NCBI RefSeq assembly: GCF_005403045.1
Contig: NZ_BJCL01000009.1
Location: forward strand, 186,001 to 250,000
From: Pseudaquabacterium pictum
GTDB taxonomy: Bacteria > Pseudomonadota > Gammaproteobacteria > Burkholderiales > Burkholderiaceae_C
Length of the DNA: 64,000 nt
Direction: 5' to 3'
Part shown: positions 31,596 to 41,263 of the stretch, one piece after another
Position numbering within the stretch: position 1 is the first letter of the stretch
Layout: the number at the start of each line of letters is the position of its first letter
Notes under the pieces: model-generated
What the model was told of the DNA's origin: nothing
Database searches by the model: none
The model's input: the letters and a program-made list of their open reading frames with translations, nothing else
Program-made: the position numbers and the translations under genes

Positions 31596-31925
31596 TCAAG
31601 CTCCACTGGCGAGCTTGGCGCTGACCAGGCGGTTCAGGCTGACGCCCTGCTCGCTGGCTTCGATGGCCAGGCGGCGGTGCTGCTCCGGCGGGATGCGCAC
31701 CTTGAACTCGCCGCTGTAGCGGCGGTCCGCCAAAGGCACGGGCACCGGCTCGCCATGGGCGGACATGTCGCGCACGCAGTCGGCCACGACGCTGCGAATG
31801 CCGGCCAGGGCTTCAGCGGGTGTGGCGGCCAGCCAGGACAGCGACGGGAACTCGGCGCACAGGCCCACATGCTCGGCATCCTCGGCAGACCAGGTGACGC
31901 GGTAGGTGTAGTGGTCAGAGTTCAT
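31596..31925 (-). CDS. hicB: HicB-family antitoxin
   Basis: A 109-residue HicB: the N-terminal partial RNase-H-like fold (YRVTWSAEDAEHVGLCAEFP, then ATPAEALAGIRSVVADCV) and a C-terminal ribbon-helix-helix (FKVRIPPEQHRRLAIEASEQ; SLNRLVSAKL). It should bind and neutralise the upstream HicA and repress the operon. Its start overlaps the hicA stop by 11 bp. Confidence 0.88.
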   Translation of the reverse strand: MNSDHYTYRVTWSAEDAEHVGLCAEFPSLSWLAATPAEALAGIRSVVADCVRDMSAHGEPVPVPLADRRYSGEFKVRIPPEQHRRLAIEASEQGVSLNRLVSAKLASGA

Positions 31926-33928: not shown

Positions 33929-35050
33929 ATGGGCGCGCCTGAACAACTGCCGCTGCCGCTGGTGGAGGCCGTGCGCGTCATCGCGCAGGGCCCGCTGGCC
34001 GACGCTGCCGAAGCCATCGACCGCGGCAGCTACCCGCGCCACATCCTGCAGGCGCTGGGCGCGGCCGGGGCCTTCAGCGCCCACCTGGGGCCGGGCATGG
34101 CGGCGGGCGACTTTGCCGCCGCCATCCGCGCCAGTGCGGCGGTGTCGCAGGTGTGCGGCGCCACCGGCTTCATGGTGTGGTGCCAGCAAGTCTGCGGCTT
34201 CTATCTGCAGCAGGCCGCCAGCCCCACGCTGCAGCGTGAGCTGCTGCCGCTGCATGCCACCGGCGCCCGCCTGGGCGGCACCGGCATGAGCAACCCGATG
34301 AAGGCCTATGCCGGCATCGAGCCGCTGCTGCTGAAGGCCCGCCGGGTGGACGGCGGCTGGTGCATCAACGGCACCCTGCCCTGGGTCAGCAACCTGGGGC
34401 CCGACCACTATGCCGGCGTGCTGGCGGGGGTGGATGGCGAGGCGGGCGCCGCGCCCACCGAGGTGATGTTCCTGCTGCGCTGCGACGCGCCCGGCGTGGA
34501 GCTGCGCACCTGCCCCAGCTTCAGCGCGATGGAGGGCACCAACACCTGGGCGCTGCGCTGCACCGACCTGTTCGTGCCCGATGCGGATGTGATCGCCCAC
34601 CCGGCCAAGCCGCTGATCGGCCGCATCCGCGCCGGCTTCATCCTGCTGCAGTGCGGCTTTGGCCTGGGCGTGACCCAGGGCGCCATCGACGCGATGTGGC
34701 AGGTGGAGCCCGCGCTGGGCCATGTGAACTGCTTCCTGGAAGACCGGCCCGACAGCCTGCAGACCGAGCTGGACGCGCTGTGGGCCCGGGTGGAGACCCT
34801 GGCCGCCACGCCCTTCGACACCAGCACCGACTACTTCATCAACGTGCTCGACGCCCGCGCCCATGCCAGCGAGCTGGCGCTGCGCGCCGCGCAATCCAGC
34901 CTGCTGCATTCAGGCGCGCGGGGCTACCTGCTGTCCAACGGCGTGCAGCGCCGGGTGCGGGAATCGCACTTCGTCGCCATCGTCTCGCCGGCCATCAAGC
35001 ACCTGCGCAAGGAGATTGCGCGCTTGTCGGCCGCGGAGATGCCGGCATGA
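33929..35050 (+). CDS. Acyl-CoA-dehydrogenase-fold flavoprotein
   Basis: A 373-residue protein of the acyl-CoA dehydrogenase superfamily: N-terminal helical domain with AGAFSAHLGPGMAAGDF, middle beta-domain with GGTGMSNPMKAYAGIEPLLL and TLPWVSNLGPDHY, and a C-terminal helical bundle (SSLLHSGARGYLLSNGVQRR). It resembles the DszC/SfnB flavin monooxygenase-like branch as much as true CoA dehydrogenases. With a rhodanese and a rubredoxin reductase in the operon, an organosulfur substrate is plausible but not shown. Confidence 0.82.
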   Translation: MGAPEQLPLPLVEAVRVIAQGPLADAAEAIDRGSYPRHILQALGAAGAFSAHLGPGMAAGDFAAAIRASAAVSQVCGATGFMVWCQQVCGFYLQQAASPTLQRELLPLHATGARLGGTGMSNPMKAYAGIEPLLLKARRVDGGWCINGTLPWVSNLGPDHYAGVLAGVDGEAGAAPTEVMFLLRCDAPGVELRTCPSFSAMEGTNTWALRCTDLFVPDADVIAHPAKPLIGRIRAGFILLQCGFGLGVTQGAIDAMWQVEPALGHVNCFLEDRPDSLQTELDALWARVETLAATPFDTSTDYFINVLDARAHASELALRAAQSSLLHSGARGYLLSNGVQRRVRESHFVAIVSPAIKHLRKEIARLSAAEMPA

Positions 35051-36462
35051 CGGACGCGCTGCAGGCCCTGCCGTGGCGGCAGTTCATCTGCCGCGTGTGT
35101 GGATTGATCTACGACGAGCGGCTGGGTGATGCCGACAGCGGCCTGGCCGCCGGCACCCGCTTCAACGACATCCCCGACGACTGGGCCTGCCCGATCTGCG
35201 GCGTGGGCAAGGCGGATTTCGAGCCGCACGAGCCCGTGGCCATGGCCCGTGCCGCCAGCGCGCCGGCGGTGGCCATCGCCCCGCGCCAGGCCGGCATCGT
35301 GGTGGTGGGCGCCGGCCGCGCCGGCTGGCAGGTGGTGCAGGCGCTGCGGGCGCAGGGCTGCACCGCCCCCATCAGCATGGTGGCCGCCTGCAGCGGCGAT
35401 GTGTACGACAAGCCGCAGCTCAGCGTGGCCATGGCCCGGGCGCTGCCGCTGGCCGGCCTGGTGCGTGAGACGGCCGCCGCCGCCGCCCGGCGCCTGGGCG
35501 TGCACCTGTTGGCCGACACCCATGCGGTGGCGGTGGACCTGCCCGGCCGCCGCCTGCGCACCACCCGCGGCACTCTGCGCTGGCAGGCCCTGGTGCTGGC
35601 CCACGGCGCGGCACCGGCGCTGCCACCCGAACTGCCCGCCGCCCAGGTGTGGCGGGTGAACGACCTGGCGGCCTACCGCCGGCTGCGCGCCGCGCTGGAC
35701 GGCGGCCCGCAGCGCCTGGCCATCGTCGGCGCCGGCCTGGTGGGCTGCGAGCTGGCCAATGACCTGGCGCTGGCCGGCCACCAGATCCACCTGCTGGATG
35801 TGCAGGCCCAGCCGCTGGCGGCGCAGCTGCCACCGGCCGCCGGCCAGCGCCTGCTGGCCGCCTGGGCCGGGCTGCCGATCCAGTTCATCGGCGGCGCGCG
35901 GGTGACCGGCATGGCCGCCGCCGACGGCCCCGGCCCGCGCTGGCAGCTGACGCTGGCCGGCCAGGCCGAGCCGCTGCAGACCGGCCAGGTGCTGCGCGTG
36001 GACCAGGTGCTGTGCGCCACCGGCCTGCGCACACCCGGCCGGCTGGCCGCCAGCGCCGGCCTGGCCTTCGACACGGCCGCCGGCGGCATCACCGTGGATG
36101 GCCGCAGTGGCGCCACCAGCCAGCCGGGCATCTATGCGCTGGGGGATTGCGCGGTGGTGGATGGGCGCGCCAGCCGGTACATCGAGCCTATTGCGCGGCA
36201 GGCCGCCGCCATCTCGGCGCATATCCTGGGACTGCCGCTGCCGGACGGTGCCCCGCCGCCGATGCCGCTGCTCCGTGTCAAGACCTCGGCGCTGCCGATC
36301 ACGCTGAAGTGGCACGGCAGCGGCGCCGGCACTTGGCAGACCACCGTAGACACTGCCGACGAGTTGCGCCTGCTGCAGCATGACGCGCGGGGCGCCCTGC
36401 TGGCTACGCTGCTGGCACGTCGACCTGGCGGCGAAATCGGTAACCTAGGCACCGTCGTCTGA
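35047..36462 (+). CDS. Rubredoxin-rubredoxin reductase fusion protein
   Basis: A 471-residue fusion. Residues about 12-60 are a rubredoxin with both Cys pairs (CRVCGLIYDE and CPICGVGKADF) and the rest is a FAD/NAD(P)H reductase (VVVGAGRAGWQVVQAL; NAD motif IVGAGLVGCELANDLAL; FAD motif GIYALGDCAVV). The polypeptide would pass electrons from NAD(P)H via FAD to its own Fe centre and on to a partner oxygenase or oxidase. Start overlaps the previous stop (ATGA). It is the last gene before the AT-rich island. Confidence 0.9.
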   Translation: MTDALQALPWRQFICRVCGLIYDERLGDADSGLAAGTRFNDIPDDWACPICGVGKADFEPHEPVAMARAASAPAVAIAPRQAGIVVVGAGRAGWQVVQALRAQGCTAPISMVAACSGDVYDKPQLSVAMARALPLAGLVRETAAAAARRLGVHLLADTHAVAVDLPGRRLRTTRGTLRWQALVLAHGAAPALPPELPAAQVWRVNDLAAYRRLRAALDGGPQRLAIVGAGLVGCELANDLALAGHQIHLLDVQAQPLAAQLPPAAGQRLLAAWAGLPIQFIGGARVTGMAAADGPGPRWQLTLAGQAEPLQTGQVLRVDQVLCATGLRTPGRLAASAGLAFDTAAGGITVDGRSGATSQPGIYALGDCAVVDGRASRYIEPIARQAAAISAHILGLPLPDGAPPPMPLLRVKTSALPITLKWHGSGAGTWQTTVDTADELRLLQHDARGALLATLLARRPGGEIGNLGTVV

Positions 36463-36767
36463 CCATGTAGGTAAGGCTGGCTTTCGGCCTAACACTACGC
36501 GGCAAGCACTATGCGCTACGCGGTGCCAGCCGCCCCCGGCTGCCTTGATACTGGCGGCAAACTCGCGGCTATCGTGCGCTGCATGCTCACAGCGACAGGG
36601 CAGCTGGCGAGCGAGCATCGAGGAGATTTAAGGCAATTCGCTCGACTTGCCCAAGGTCCCGTCTTCCAATCAGTTTGACCCGCCTCGAAAACCGCGGCAA
36701 ATCCGCCTGCCGTTGGCGCACCGCCTGAGTGTGGGGTTCGTCATCGCTCGCTCGAAATGGATGCATG
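36463..36767. other. Non-coding gap with recombination core-like site at 36487-36493
   Basis: These 305 bp hold no convincing gene. GCCTAAC at 36487-36493 (GTTAGGC on the minus strand) exactly fits the GTTRRRY core of integron sites and lies 24 bp from the end of the rubredoxin-reductase gene. A CAGCCG/CGGCTG hairpin (36527-36542) follows. A minus-strand reading ending at 36587 looks weakly protein-like (PRFSRRVKLIGRRDLGQV) and could be a gene remnant, but no family was recognised. Confidence 0.5.
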
Positions 36768-38450
36768 CTATTTGATGGCCCACACTGTGTCGTAGGCGTA
36801 CTCCGCGAGTTCTTGCGTACGTTTCTCAACTTCTGCGTGTGTCCATGCCGTGGCAGCGAGAACATGCGAGTCAAGGGCGTAACCGCCAGCGGTCAGCAGG
36901 ACCTTCTTGTCGACGAACGATTTTGACCCAAGCTTGTCGCCATTGAACTTTATTGGTACCAAGAGGAGGTTGCCAATATAATGAGTCCAATAGTTGTGAT
37001 TTGCTTGCGGTGAAAGATGCTCCAAGGAACTTGAAGCCCGATCAATGTCTACAGCAGCGTTTCGTGACTTATCAATGTTCCACAACGTGTACCTCAGTAC
37101 ATCTCGTTGGCGAGTGTTTAGATAGTTGAGTTGCTTGAACTTACTTATGAAGACGTCTCTCGCGGGAACTTTGTCTTTGACCTTTTTCTTGAAGTCAGTG
37201 ATGCAGATTCCCAGCGCGTTCGAATCTGCTGCATTCGCGAAATCTCTCGCGTGTGCGGCATACATGAGACTCACGCCTCCTGAAGAGGGAAGAGCGCAAA
37301 TAGTTGTGTAGGTGTAGTGGTATCTCTCCACTAGGCTAAAGACTTCGCGGACCTGTCCGTCCTTCAACTTCTTGGCGTTATAAAGTCGCAGTACCGACAG
37401 CAGCAGTGGATTCGCAATTTGAATATTCAGTATGTTCGAAATGCAGTAGAGTGAGTCCTTAACATCTGCTGTTGTTCGAGTCCAGAAATCTAGTACTTCT
37501 GGCTCCGATATTCCGCGGTAGAGAGTGCTGTCCGAGCGCAGTTCCGCAACGATATCTTTGACATTTAACGCATTCACAGTGTCTCGGATCGCTCGGAAAA
37601 GTTGCTTCTCCGTAGTGAACGGGTGCTTTGAAAGCCAGTAGTGGTGAAGAAAGGTTCTTAGTTGAATTGGCTTCTGCGCGTGCTCCAGTTCCGTCTGCAT
37701 TTCGAGCCAGTGGTCCTTCGGCCTATCGATTGCCTTTCCCTTGGCCGGGAGCAGACGTAGGAAGTGGTTCTTCGCCAAGTCCGCTGCCGTTAGGTCTTTG
37801 CCCCGGGTATTGAGTGTCTCGAAAATCGTATAGGCGTCATCTTGATTATCTAGCGTGATTGATATTACCTTCAATGCGAGAATCTTGTCTCGTATCTGAT
37901 CCAACCACCTCTTTGTTGCAGCCTTCGCTTTGGCTGCGTCAAGGCTGGCTATGCGATCAACTCCAGACTTGATAAATCCATTTATTGTCTCGTACGCCGC
38001 TCCGATTGCGCGCTCCTCATCGCCCGCATTAATAACCTCCTCCTCCTTTTCGAAGCTTTGGATCTTTGCCTGCAAAAACGGATATGAGGTTTCAGCGCGA
38101 AGAACGAATTGCGCTTGATCGTTTAGGTCTCTGGTCTCGATTAGTCGATGAACGCCTTTTGCCGCTGCTGTGTGCCCAAGTTCCAAGTACTTGTCGCGAA
38201 TGGCGCAGAGAGTAATGGTAATGGTTGTGAGTCGCTGTTGGCCGTCGACTATCCCGTAGGAAGAGCTCGATATATTATATGTGACGAAGGCGCCGATGAA
38301 ATAGTCTTTCTTTACGTCCGAAGTACTATCGCCCCAGAACTCTTCTACATTTTCTCGATCCCAGGAAAAAGGTCTCTGGAATCTAGGAATGACGTATGTG
38401 CCGGACTCTAGGATCTGGCGAACATCGCGGTCGACGCACTGAATCTTCAT
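36768..38450 (-). CDS. DUF262-DUF1524 (GmrSD-like) predicted nuclease
   Basis: A 560-residue protein with the two-domain layout of GmrSD-type modification-dependent nucleases. The N-terminal DUF262 domain has YVIPRFQRPFSWDRENVEEF (residues about 19-38) and the DGQQR motif at 69-73, expected to bind and hydrolyse NTP. The C-terminal DUF1524 domain has LEHLSPQ with His478 and NYWTHYIGNLLL, an HNH-type site. Relatives cut modified phage DNA, or DNA under other triggers. G+C is low: one counted line (37081-37140) is 27/60. ATG at 38450 is chosen at the domain start, 31 bp after an attC-like element. Confidence 0.88.
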   Translation of the reverse strand: MKIQCVDRDVRQILESGTYVIPRFQRPFSWDRENVEEFWGDSTSDVKKDYFIGAFVTYNISSSSYGIVDGQQRLTTITITLCAIRDKYLELGHTAAAKGVHRLIETRDLNDQAQFVLRAETSYPFLQAKIQSFEKEEEVINAGDEERAIGAAYETINGFIKSGVDRIASLDAAKAKAATKRWLDQIRDKILALKVISITLDNQDDAYTIFETLNTRGKDLTAADLAKNHFLRLLPAKGKAIDRPKDHWLEMQTELEHAQKPIQLRTFLHHYWLSKHPFTTEKQLFRAIRDTVNALNVKDIVAELRSDSTLYRGISEPEVLDFWTRTTADVKDSLYCISNILNIQIANPLLLSVLRLYNAKKLKDGQVREVFSLVERYHYTYTTICALPSSGGVSLMYAAHARDFANAADSNALGICITDFKKKVKDKVPARDVFISKFKQLNYLNTRQRDVLRYTLWNIDKSRNAAVDIDRASSSLEHLSPQANHNYWTHYIGNLLLVPIKFNGDKLGSKSFVDKKVLLTAGGYALDSHVLAATAWTHAEVEKRTQELAEYAYDTVWAIK

Positions 38451-38480
38451 GCGGGGAGTCCAAGTAGAGGTGACTGTGAT

Positions 38481-38609
38481 GGCTAACGTTCGAATCAAGC
38501 CGCCCGTGGTGGCAGGCAGCGTAAGCCTGGGCTGATACGATGCACCAAGTGCCTCAGCCTAGATTTACGCCGCCCGCCGTAGCGAGTCGGCTTGATCGAG
38601 GGGTTGGGC
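38481..38609 (-). repeat. attC-like (59-base-element) recombination site
   Basis: A 129-bp element that folds on itself almost throughout. Outer core sites are GGCTAAC (38481-38487) and GTTGGGC (38603-38609). A 12-bp stem follows, 38490-38502 with 38588-38599, with one bulged A at 38494. Nested pairs are GCGTAA/TTACGC (38519, 38565), GGCTGA/TCAGCC (38530, 38554) and a GCAC-CAA-GTGC tip (38542-38552). Core, spacer, stem and single extrahelical base match integron attC architecture, and the length lies in the known range. Read on the minus strand it starts 38 bp after the P-loop gene and ends 31 bp before the DUF262 gene, as expected at a cassette junction. Confidence 0.65.
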
Positions 38610-38647
38610 GATAGCTCGCGGCCGCTCCCTTGAAATGCCTCTGCTTC

Positions 38648-39802
38648 CTAACTCTGGGGCACTTGCTTTCGCAAAATGCGACGTAGGTCTTCAAGGGTTG
38701 ACTTGAGCTTAGCGGACTCCACAGCCCCCAGTTCTTTCGTCGACAGAGCATCGACTATTGCCCGAAGCCGATCGACTAGAGGTTGAGCGCTTTGAGCAGC
38801 GTTCGCTCGGGACAGGCAACTTTCAAGTGCCTTGTTGCGATTAAGAGGCGGACTTGGCGCAGGAGTGTCAAAGACGACTATGCGCGCTAGGCGGCGGCGC
38901 GCGTAGTCGGCTACTGCCGCCGGCTCTTCTGTTCCCGATAGGAAACCTTCTGTCTTCAGCACTTGTCGGCATGTGAAGAGGAACTTTGTATCGGTGAGCA
39001 TCTTGGCGACAGACTCAGCACCATGACCAGAGTGATAGAGAAGATGAAGCTGACTGTCGAGGTAGCCTGACGATAAAGCGCTCAAGACTCGCGTTTGGCT
39101 CAGATACTTGATCAAGACACTGGTCTTGCCCTGGCCGCGTTCGCCAAGAATAAAGTATGAGTTGCTCCGTTGAACGTCAAGTTTCGCCTGTTCGCAGGCC
39201 CAAATCGTCGGCTTGGACGTCAAAGACCGCAACCTTGCCGTGTCACTTTCCTGATCGATCAAGTTCGTCCAGCGGGCCATGCTATGGCACAAGGCGGCTG
39301 AGTCCAGCAATGCCGCGGCTGGGGACAGGCCAACAACTGTCGCCCGCAGATACCGGGCAAGTGAAGTGTGGCGCTCGAAATAGCGACTATCCATCTTAGT
39401 CACTGCCGTAGCCGTGCGCAGCAATGAAATAAGCGACGACGTGTGCGACGTGGACTCGTCGAACGCCTCAACAAACCGCGACAGCAGAAGGCGGTCATGT
39501 GCAGGCAGTGCAAAGGCGTCCAGTAGCGCCTGCACGGCAGCCGTGGTAATTCCGAACGATGAGAGAACTGCTTTTCCCAAGTCCGTCAGGCGGAAGCGAT
39601 CAGCGGGCGCAAGCTCTAGAAGGCTTGCCCGGAACAACTGATCTACCTTCTTTCGTGCGTCGAACGCATCGGTCGAGATTTGATCCTGCAACTCGCCTTC
39701 CGAAAGAGCGCCCGAGCGCAAGAAGGAGGAGAGCACAATTGTGCCAAGCCTATCGCTAGCCAATGGATGGCGATAGTTGTCAAGTATTTCGACGGCTTGC
39801 AT
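38648..39802 (-). CDS. Winged-helix protein with P-loop, unknown family
   Basis: A 384-residue protein. The N-terminal third looks like winged helices (GALSEGELQDQISTDAFDAR; RFRLTDLGKAVLSSFG). A Walker A motif GERGQGKTS stands at about residues 220-228, preceded by a hydrophobic strand (SYFIL); ARIVVFDT near 317 may be Walker B. No STAND, AAA or ABC family was recognised, and the P-loop domain is short. The C-terminus is helical. Its ATG overlaps the stop of the upstream 175-residue gene (TGATG), so the two are translationally coupled. Base composition is unlike the flanks. Confidence 0.7.
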   Translation of the reverse strand: MQAVEILDNYRHPLASDRLGTIVLSSFLRSGALSEGELQDQISTDAFDARKKVDQLFRASLLELAPADRFRLTDLGKAVLSSFGITTAAVQALLDAFALPAHDRLLLSRFVEAFDESTSHTSSLISLLRTATAVTKMDSRYFERHTSLARYLRATVVGLSPAAALLDSAALCHSMARWTNLIDQESDTARLRSLTSKPTIWACEQAKLDVQRSNSYFILGERGQGKTSVLIKYLSQTRVLSALSSGYLDSQLHLLYHSGHGAESVAKMLTDTKFLFTCRQVLKTEGFLSGTEEPAAVADYARRRLARIVVFDTPAPSPPLNRNKALESCLSRANAAQSAQPLVDRLRAIVDALSTKELGAVESAKLKSTLEDLRRILRKQVPQS

Positions 39803-40329
39803 CAGTAACGCCTCCCGTTGAGGTAGTAGTACTCCTGAAGTCGCCGCACCATCTCAAGCGCTGAAGTCAATATGCAACCGGGCAAATCAGACGCCTTGTA
39901 GAGCTGAATCTTGCAGGTCGCTACTGACTGCATCTGAATCAGGCTCTGGTTTGCGTACCCGGAGTTCCAGTCTGCATTGAGGTAGGCTACGATTTTGTGA
40001 GATAACTGCGGGATTCGCGCGAAATCGTGTATTTCTGCAATAGAGCCAGGCGAGTCCGGAATCGAGAAGACGACGTCGAAAGCTTCTGCTTGCGACATCT
40101 GCTGAGCCACTACAGACATGGTGCTCTTGGGATCAACTAGGTCTTCGCTAAACCGCGCGTGATGTCCGTTGGAGTTCAGTTGATCCTTCAGCTGCCCCCG
40201 GGCGCTTGCGACCGGAGTTGAAGCGGTTGGAGCTGGGCCCCAGATCAACGCTGCAACTGGCACCCTTTGGATGCGCTGTAGCGCCTCCATGCGGAGACGC
40301 TCAATGTGCGCTTCAAACGGTGTGGGCAT
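39802..40329 (-). CDS. Small nucleotide-metabolite-binding protein (TIR/deoxyribosyltransferase/SLOG-like)
   Basis: A 175-residue single-domain protein. It has an initial strand (VAALIWGPA near 26), a DxxxFDVVFSIPDS strand near 90, and SPGSIAEIHDFA with Glu99, followed by a strand (KIVAYLN) near 113. The order strand-helix-strand with S-G-S/T-xx-E recalls nucleoside deoxyribosyltransferases, TIR NADases and SLOG proteins, where the Glu is catalytic or binds a ribosyl ligand. Such domains are effectors in several anti-phage systems. Family assignment is by pattern only. It is the first gene of the AT-rich pair. Confidence 0.55.
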   Translation of the reverse strand: MPTPFEAHIERLRMEALQRIQRVPVAALIWGPAPTASTPVASARGQLKDQLNSNGHHARFSEDLVDPKSTMSVVAQQMSQAEAFDVVFSIPDSPGSIAEIHDFARIPQLSHKIVAYLNADWNSGYANQSLIQMQSVATCKIQLYKASDLPGCILTSALEMVRRLQEYYYLNGRRY

Positions 40330-40379
40330 CGTGCTCCTCTCTGCTGGCTTTTGGACTGAATGGTACTCGGAGGGTGGTG

Positions 40380-40425
40380 GCTGACGCTTAACGTGATCCA
40401 GACGTCAGCGCTACAAATCTGACGT
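40380..40425. promoter_or_regulatory. Inverted repeats and core-like site upstream of the island genes
   Basis: GCTTAAC at 40386-40392 (GTTAAGC on the minus strand) fits the integron GTTRRRY core and lies 57 bp before the first island gene. It is followed by ACGTCAG (40402-40408) and CTGACGT (40419-40425), a 7-bp inverted repeat with a 10-nt spacer, and a further CTGACG copy stands at 40381. The set could be a degenerate attC, an attI-like site, or an operator. No second outer core was found. Confidence 0.45.
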
Positions 40426-40618
40426 GACCGAATAGTAGTGATTTCATCAGCTTTCGACCATTATTCCCACCCAGAAAAGTCAAAGATCCGACCCCAGCTT
40501 TCGGGTGAACACTCAAGTGAAAATGCGCGCCCCTACAAACTTGGGATGGTGCATGGCGGCCGATACCCACGCGTGCGGCACACGGCGATGGCCAACACCG
40601 CGCCCACCATCCACCCAG

Positions 40619-41263
40619 CTATAACCCCTCCCGCACCGCGTACAACGCCAGCTCCACATCATTGCGCACGCCGGTCTTCTCCAGGATCCGCGCCCGGTAG
40701 GTGCTGACGGTGTTCGACGACAGCACCAGCTGCTCGGCGATCTCGCCCACGCTGCGGCCGGCGGCCAGCAGGCGGAAGACCTGGTACTCGCGGTGCGACA
40801 GCCGCTCGTGCAGCGGCGCCTCGGGCGCGCTGCTGCGGCTGCCGGCGGGCACCAGCTGCTCGGCCATGAGCTCGGCCACGCCGGGGGTGATGAACAGCTT
40901 GCCCTGGGCCACCCGGCGGATGGCGTCGATCAGCTGCTCGCTGTCGGCGCTCTTGTTCAGGTAGCCGGCGGCGCCCAGCTTCAGGCTGCGCACTGCGTAC
41001 TGGCGGTCGGGGTAGGTGCTCAGCATCAGCACCGGCAGGCGCGGCGCCTCGGCCTTCAGCGCCTTCAGCACGTCCAGCCCGTCGCGCTGCGGCATGGCGA
41101 TGTCGAGCAGCACCACGTCGATGCCGCCGCGGCGCACCTGGGCCAGCGCGTCGGGGCCGTCGGCGGCCTCGCCGGCCACGGCGATGTCGGCCGCATCGGC
41201 CAGGATCTGCTTGATGCCCTGGCGCACGATCAGGTGGTCGTCACACACCAGCACGCGGATCAT
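40619..41263 (-). CDS. NarL/FixJ-family response regulator
   Basis: A 214-residue regulator: receiver domain with Asp8, Asp9 and phospho-acceptor Asp54 (VVLLDIAMPQRDGL), and a LuxR-type HTH near residues 150-200 (LSHREYQVFRLLAAGRSVGE; SSNTVSTYRARILEKTG). It overlaps the histidine kinase gene by 4 bp (ATGA), forming a two-component pair. Targets are unknown. Confidence 0.95.
   Translation of the reverse strand: MIRVLVCDDHLIVRQGIKQILADAADIAVAGEAADGPDALAQVRRGGIDVVLLDIAMPQRDGLDVLKALKAEAPRLPVLMLSTYPDRQYAVRSLKLGAAGYLNKSADSEQLIDAIRRVAQGKLFITPGVAELMAEQLVPAGSRSSAPEAPLHERLSHREYQVFRLLAAGRSVGEIAEQLVLSSNTVSTYRARILEKTGVRNDVELALYAVREGL

Follow-up and report, generated by a model that had tools for sequence, protein, structure and literature searches.

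A structurally degenerate attC site among defence-like genes, away from the chromosomal integron of Pseudaquabacterium pictum

Clusters of attC sites lacking an adjacent integron integrase gene (CALINs) are a described class of element; IntegronFinder 2 by default needs two attCs and drops CALINs with a single attC, which can nevertheless be true positives (PMC9024848). In Xanthomonas, CALINs located away from the integron are reported in about half of the genomes (PMC12444791). The cassettes of sedentary chromosomal integrons include defence genes, type IV restriction systems among them, as outlined in a review (PMC12409362), and in class 1 integrons, cassettes that became fused through partial loss of an attC, leaving a truncated attC after the gene, are described in PMC4670013. 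Here we analyze an island of three genes of P. pictum that resembles these systems in part and departs from each of them; below, "the window" denotes the whole stretch of DNA under study (64,000 nucleotides).

The island contains one complete attC, attC1, and the original prediction of such a site at a minus-strand gene junction was borne out. Nearly all of its 129 bp form an imperfect palindrome, whose outer cores on the minus strand, the sense strand of the genes, are GCCCAAC...GTTAGCC; the stop codon of one gene (38648) and the ATG of the next (38448-38450) flank the element. Folding is stronger than in shuffled sequences for both strands, with -33.6 kcal/mol for the minus strand (none of 200 shuffles as good; z -4.76) and -30.9 kcal/mol for the plus strand, the bottom strand of the site (1 of 200; z -2.73). 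In attC sites, the core consensus is RYYYAAC for R'' and GTTRRRY for R'; the R'' of attC1 fits this consensus and the R' deviates at one base, with the same GTTAGCC forming the 3' end of 2 of the 37 attCs used for the covariance model described next.

The family sample comprised 150 genomes, that of P. pictum included, of which 57 encode an integron integrase scoring over the TIGR02249 cut-off. From 40 integron regions and the array of P. pictum itself, 137 candidate attCs were collected by core and stem rules, and 37 diverse sites of canonical polarity out of 96 filtered ones (two from the P. pictum array, the window being excluded) were used to train the model, denoted R1 (69 positions, 15 pairs). 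In the window, R1 matched exactly the 129 bp of attC1 on the minus strand with 52.6 bits (E 4.7e-10), and the next-best place scored 13 bits (E 0.54); run unfiltered, the model gave the plus strand of attC1 12 bits. When compared with 254 attCs (sets A2 and A3; at E<=0.001, R1 yields 186 attCs from the 40 regions, its training rows counted, and the best 150 of these were taken into A2), attC1 was closest to 129-bp sites of arrays within its own family and genus, namely, L089:6906-7034 from a family member (96 identical bases, 74.4%), L115:2026-2154 from a congener (96 identical bases, 73.8%) and attCs of the congeneric loci L112 and L114 (71.3%). The sole plasmid match to 38449-38650, a weak one (40 nt, 85%, E 0.05), falls within the array of a class 1 integron and is oriented as the genes are. 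The element is a genuine attC, the orientation of which follows that of the genes.

The original prediction envisaged cassettes in the absence of an integrase, and in this respect the genome proved otherwise. Contig C3 carries an uninterrupted integron integrase gene (C3:307300-308244; TIGR02249, 460.8 bits, over the cut-off) beside an array of 59 attCs (C3:269392-306182, all on the minus strand), together a sedentary integron (C3:269392-308244) with an attC spacing of 375-1350 bp; in one scan of named genomes, the nearest IntI, 95% identical to that of the host, was from an Aquabacterium MAG (L129). The genome-wide R1 search scored the best 150 of 15,048 first-look candidates, so that weaker further attCs could be missed, and within this scope yielded 60 attCs at E<=1, the 59 of the array and attC1 (E 4.5e-8, rank 52), the only one reported outside the C3 array. 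The attCs of the host array are mainly 111-112 bp long, unlike the 129-bp attC1. Given that the island is located on contig C9 and intI on C3, the adjacency of intI and cassettes that characterizes an integron is lacking, and given that 30 kb separate attC1 from the closer end of its 255-kb contig, the island does not represent an assembly break of the C3 array.

Among relatives, attCs were detected by R1 (E<=1e-4) in at least 43 of 60 genomes, that of P. pictum counted, with at most 69 first-look candidates scored. In 17 congeners, with at most 150 first-look candidates scored, at least 11 contigs contain a single attC (E<=0.001), and 9 of these 11 sites lie no further than 2 kb from the end of their contig, the other two being G013:C159:2310 and G014:C180:32595-32691; lone attCs deep inside contigs are thus uncommon in this sample, not unique. 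The 97-bp G014 site directly follows a HigBA-like pair (L222:4981-5692), 6.4 kb from the contig end, and possibly belongs to a solo toxin-antitoxin cassette. A cassette in the array of another congener, G012 (L112:10697-11578), has a product that resembles TIR-type defence effectors (PADLOC, 2.1e-45).

Table 1. Features of the island and its flanks (positions in the window)
Feature	Position	Strand	Remarks
Rubredoxin-flavoprotein oxidoreductase gene, resident flank	35050..36462	+	Pfam; start approximate
GTTAGGC, left core proposed originally, not a cassette border	36487..36493	-	within sequence aligned to congener G010
attC2, truncated: 5' part only (R'', spacer, L''), 126-129-bp class	36705..36742	-	first 38 nt
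560-aa GmrSD-type (DUF262-like) protein resembling type IV restriction enzymes; probably the second cassette	36768..38450	-	start placed by homologues
attC1, complete 129-bp attC, structurally degenerate	38481..38609	-	R'' 38603-38609, R' 38481-38487
384-aa protein with Walker A-like motif GERGQGKTS (by eye), P-loop-like; first cassette	38648..39802	-	
175-aa protein resembling the retron Ec86 effector (a ribosyltransferase); first cassette	39802..40329	-	
GTTAAGC, possible 5' edge of first cassette	40386..40392	-	no more than a 7-mer; R1 score about 4 bits
Response regulator gene, resident flank	40619..41263	-	Pfam; aligned in congeners

The island genes are likely to share a defence (anti-phage) theme, judging from database matches of their predicted products. 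The 560-aa protein is classified as a GmrSD-type restriction enzyme by both of its domains (Pfam GmrSD_N, 8.4e-37, and GmrSD_C, 6.5e-11) and matches the PADLOC models Orf5 (7.6e-113) and HEC-06 (8.6e-88), with no NCBIfam match at E<=1. The 175-aa protein, whose gene overlaps that for the 384-aa protein by one base, matches PADLOC NDT_II-A (4.9e-6), the structure 7v9x in PDB (9.3e-4) and, below the cut-off, the NCBIfam retron St85 effector (0.0014); it has no Pfam match at 0.001 and a single distant match (27%, E 3e-4) among 397 other genomes of the phylum. A retron would have a reverse transcriptase and an msr-msd RNA next to its effector; no match to a reverse transcriptase family was found in any of the three island open reading frames, and none to Rfam at the gathering score anywhere in the window. 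For the 384-aa protein, a weak match to an anti-phage protein was obtained below the cut-off (E 0.003); it has relatives in 0 of 59 other relatives, none in plasmids, and no close relatives among the genome and viral contigs, in searches sensitive to close relatives only. Sharing of cassette genes with the collected integron arrays was not supported: a tblastn search with the three island proteins against 217 of 225 records (8 copies of the locus itself excluded) retrieved GmrSD homologues, from records that had been chosen for their GmrSD homology, and one weak place for the 175-aa protein only. The AlphaFold protein models from single sequences had mean pLDDT values of 37 and 40.

The GC content of the island genes (0.529) is close to that of the integron array (0.549), the flanks being far richer (0.727 and 0.716). 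The distance from attC1 to the downstream ATG is 30 nt, compared to a median of 35 across 58 cassettes of the host array, and the two stop-to-attC distances are 38 and 25 nt, compared to a median of 11.5 and an upper quartile of 67.5; in these distances, the geometry of the island fits cassettes. Elsewhere in the window, positions 31596-31925 contain a gene for a HicB-family protein.

The second site, attC2, is strongly indicated by sequence comparison to be a truncated attC. The whole window, with attC1 masked, was compared to 313 attCs (the 254 mentioned above and the 59 of P. pictum, the latter cut to 112 nt), and the best match was at 36705-36738, on the minus strand, with 30 of 34 bases identical to attC positions 5-38 (E 1.6e-4), followed by a place with E 0.013. 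Including its R'', attC2 starts 25 nt past the GmrSD stop codon. A DNA search with 36480-36780 in 21 genomes of the genus produced six matches in G012, all within the attC2 stretch, of which the best (39/47, E 1.8e-6) falls in an attC that is seemingly interrupted by an IS630-like insertion (family assigned by eye) and the remaining five correspond to attCs also found by R1; a match in G008 (25 nt, E 0.008) is within an R1 attC as well. In the G012 array, the attC at L112:14842-16043 seems, by eye, to be interrupted by an IS630-like transposase gene. Adjoining attC2, the stretch 36676-36706 has a 31-nt match (27/31, E 0.002) in the congeners G014 and G019. Given the attC remnant at the 3' end of the GmrSD gene, the island probably holds two cassettes, as originally proposed, but with borders other than those first drawn, the left one being attC2 and the right one undefined.

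The borders had been placed at two outer cores, and the 7-mers are indeed present but do not score as attCs: with R1 unfiltered, the left one reached 6.1 bits with a 256-bp span (36487) and the right one about 4 bits (40379-40410), and attCs at both places were rejected on these scores. Congener G010 aligns to the window through 36534 (91.6% over 34838-36534), which places the left core in ancestral sequence. The GTTAAGC on the right is a possible border of the island, with a GTTRRRY 7-mer estimated to occur by chance about once per four stretches of such size; no recognisable attC remnant was seen at this border in the comparison to the 313 attCs, and a DNA search produced short GC-rich matches only. 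The G010 alignment resumes at 40614, and the 1658 bp of other sequence in between (L040:1677-3334) encode two pairs, a ParE-like toxin plus an antitoxin-like protein and a PIN-domain protein plus a DUF6364-like one (the last below the cut-off), with no attC, whereas congener G012 has a short gap only, so the locus is variable. Because the congeners examined differ across the intergenic region, neither border is fixed by alignment, and no precise empty site, which for an attG insertion would have its junction at G/TT, was found among them.

Taken together, we consider it probable that the island is a fossil two-cassette integron fragment, CALIN-like, that was moved or left outside the integron and whose sites have decayed. 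On the minus strand, the layout would be the 175-aa effector-like and 384-aa P-loop-like genes, attC1, the GmrSD gene and the truncated attC2. Several points weigh against this reading, namely, that neither border is fixed by alignment, that the right one shows no recognisable attC remnant, that a clean secondary-site insertion would leave a complete 3' attC, whereas attC2 is truncated, and that attC2 is only 38 nt long, with 36707-36742 ranking second in the island but only eighth in the window by a half-site matrix. The main alternative, which we regard as rather unlikely, is that a single cassette (the 175-aa and 384-aa genes with attC1) was inserted at an attG-type secondary site immediately upstream of a resident GmrSD gene, the attC likeness at 36705-36742 being due to chance. 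The uninterrupted IntI of the genome and the completeness of attC1 speak for such an event, and attG insertion is a published process, as cited in PMC12444791 and PMC12901181. Furthermore, no attC occurs in the 6 kb or more examined on each side of the two nearest GmrSD homologues (72.9 and 66.7% identical), so the GmrSD gene could be resident beside an attC-like stretch. Against this alternative, attC2 gives the strongest attC match of the window once attC1 is masked, with the right place and orientation, and attC1 is worn and not of the main 111-112-bp type of the host array, which misfits a recent event.

The wear of attC1 is apparent in its structure. The single extrahelical base that was originally thought to orient the site exists as a bulged base, but it is located on the L' arm, shared by two neighbouring bases, opposite to the usual L'', and so the site is not oriented by it as attCs usually are. 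Among 311 of the 313 attCs (two of less than 55 nt were left out of the bulge and strand-energy comparisons), the better fit of a single-base bulge is on the L'' arm in 268, on the L' arm in 11 and on neither in 32; attC1 has the strongest L'-arm fit of all sites (31, the next being 25), with an L''-arm fit of 23.5. On the bottom strand of attC1, the extrahelical base at L'' position 16 is unpaired with a probability of 0.003, compared to a minimum of 0.18 at the same fixed index in 70 attCs of 124-131 bp, 60 of which exceed 0.5. The bottom strand is less stable than the top strand by 2.7 kcal/mol, a difference (bottom minus top) reached in 0 of the 70 size-class attCs and 3 of the 311, and the bottom-strand hairpin is weaker than those of all 70 (-43.2 to -64.5 kcal/mol). 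The arrangement of a functional attC, with the extrahelical base on the L'' arm and the bottom strand favoured, is thus missing: attC1 descends from an attC but is devoid of the usual strand-selecting feature. The natural inversion of the bulge is an unusual feature of an otherwise ordinary kind; a limited literature search, including parts of PMC8946536 and PMC2727003, returned no description of an attC whose extrahelical base is inverted in nature.

When the single extrahelical G of the VCR attC was inverted in the laboratory, recombination of the bottom strand fell 50-fold and that of the top strand rose 4.3-fold, with the exchange point shifted to R'' (PMC2727003). With the extrahelical base buried and the bulge on the opposite arm, normal recombination of attC1 should be much reduced, and we infer that the site is now a poor recombination substrate. 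The VCR result also bears on another explanation, that attC1 still functions, but with its polarity inverted, the top strand being preferred and the cassette moving in inverted orientation; the record L'-arm bulge, the better folding of the top strand and, in VCR, the bottom-strand loss and shifted exchange point agree with this, but the top-strand gain in the VCR test was only 4.3-fold and the attC1 hairpin is weak for its size on both strands, which makes the proposal very improbable. The remaining possibility, a transcription terminator, structured RNA or MITE that merely resembles an attC, has negligible probability: a strong intergenic hairpin is indeed present, but the base-level homology to attCs of real arrays extends along all 129 bp and already contradicts it, a MITE is ruled out by the single full match in the 6.14-Mb assembly (21 other places are short, with E 0.2 or worse) and a structured RNA by the lack of Rfam matches in the window. 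None of the outcomes named originally as fatal to an attC (lack of a model match, dispersed copies or a conserved RNA) was encountered.

Under the preferred reading of a decayed two-cassette fragment, the simplest route of arrival would be placement of a cassette or a two-cassette circle by an integron integrase, the host's own or that of a relative, at a non-attI chromosomal site. Subsequently, attC2 would have lost its 3' part, and substitutions in attC1 would have paired the strand-selecting extrahelical base and weakened the bottom-strand hairpin. Through the decay of both sites, the island genes would now be close to immobile, with their reading frames still open. Compared to attCs ending in CGGCTTAGCTCG (for example, in L116), three adjacent bases of the attC1 L' are changed from AGC to GAT, which matches the complement of L'' (ATC), so that the strand-choosing base is paired and the bulge shifted to the other arm. 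Quasi-palindrome correction of attC1, by which the cassette would have been naturally 'locked', is conceivable but unlikely; should such template-switch repair recur, it would be a simple route for fixing escaped cassettes, in this case with defence-like content, as chromosomal genes. In general, the island can serve as a worked example of integron cargo located outside an array in a bacterium whose genome retains an integron, and the wear of attC1 can be followed base by base. Single-attC remnants, which the default mode of IntegronFinder 2 drops (PMC9024848), can mark candidate defence genes, and the 384-aa protein exemplifies a candidate marked in this way with no close relative in the collections searched.

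A topic search of the literature produced no report on a single attC outside integrons. The closest counterparts are the systems introduced above. At the level of the site, these are the 126-129-bp Burkholderiaceae-type chromosomal attCs (L089:6906-7034, L115:2026-2154 and L112:3279-3407), which are 71-74% identical to attC1 and share with it the length, the R''/R' cores, the CCCTCG spacer, the CGCTACGGC block and the CGAACGTTAG 3' end. Unlike them, attC1 is alone, has R''/R' mismatches, a paired extrahelical base and the bulge on the other arm, and its bottom-strand hairpin is 12-34 kcal/mol weaker than those of the 70 size-class sites. At the level of the locus, the island resembles the CALINs of IntegronFinder in that attC-bounded genes are located away from any intI, and differs in that it has one complete and one truncated attC while intI is present elsewhere in the genome. 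With the anti-phage cassettes of sedentary integrons, it shares defence-like genes, including one of the type IV restriction type, in cassettes; it differs by lying outside the array, by one cassette having two genes (about 1.9 kb, measured from the gene start to the end of the attC) and by its function being predicted. Finally, a truncated attC after a gene is common to the island and the fused cassettes of class 1 integrons, but in the latter the truncated site is located between two cassettes, whereas in the island it forms the outer edge of the fragment, adjoining other DNA.
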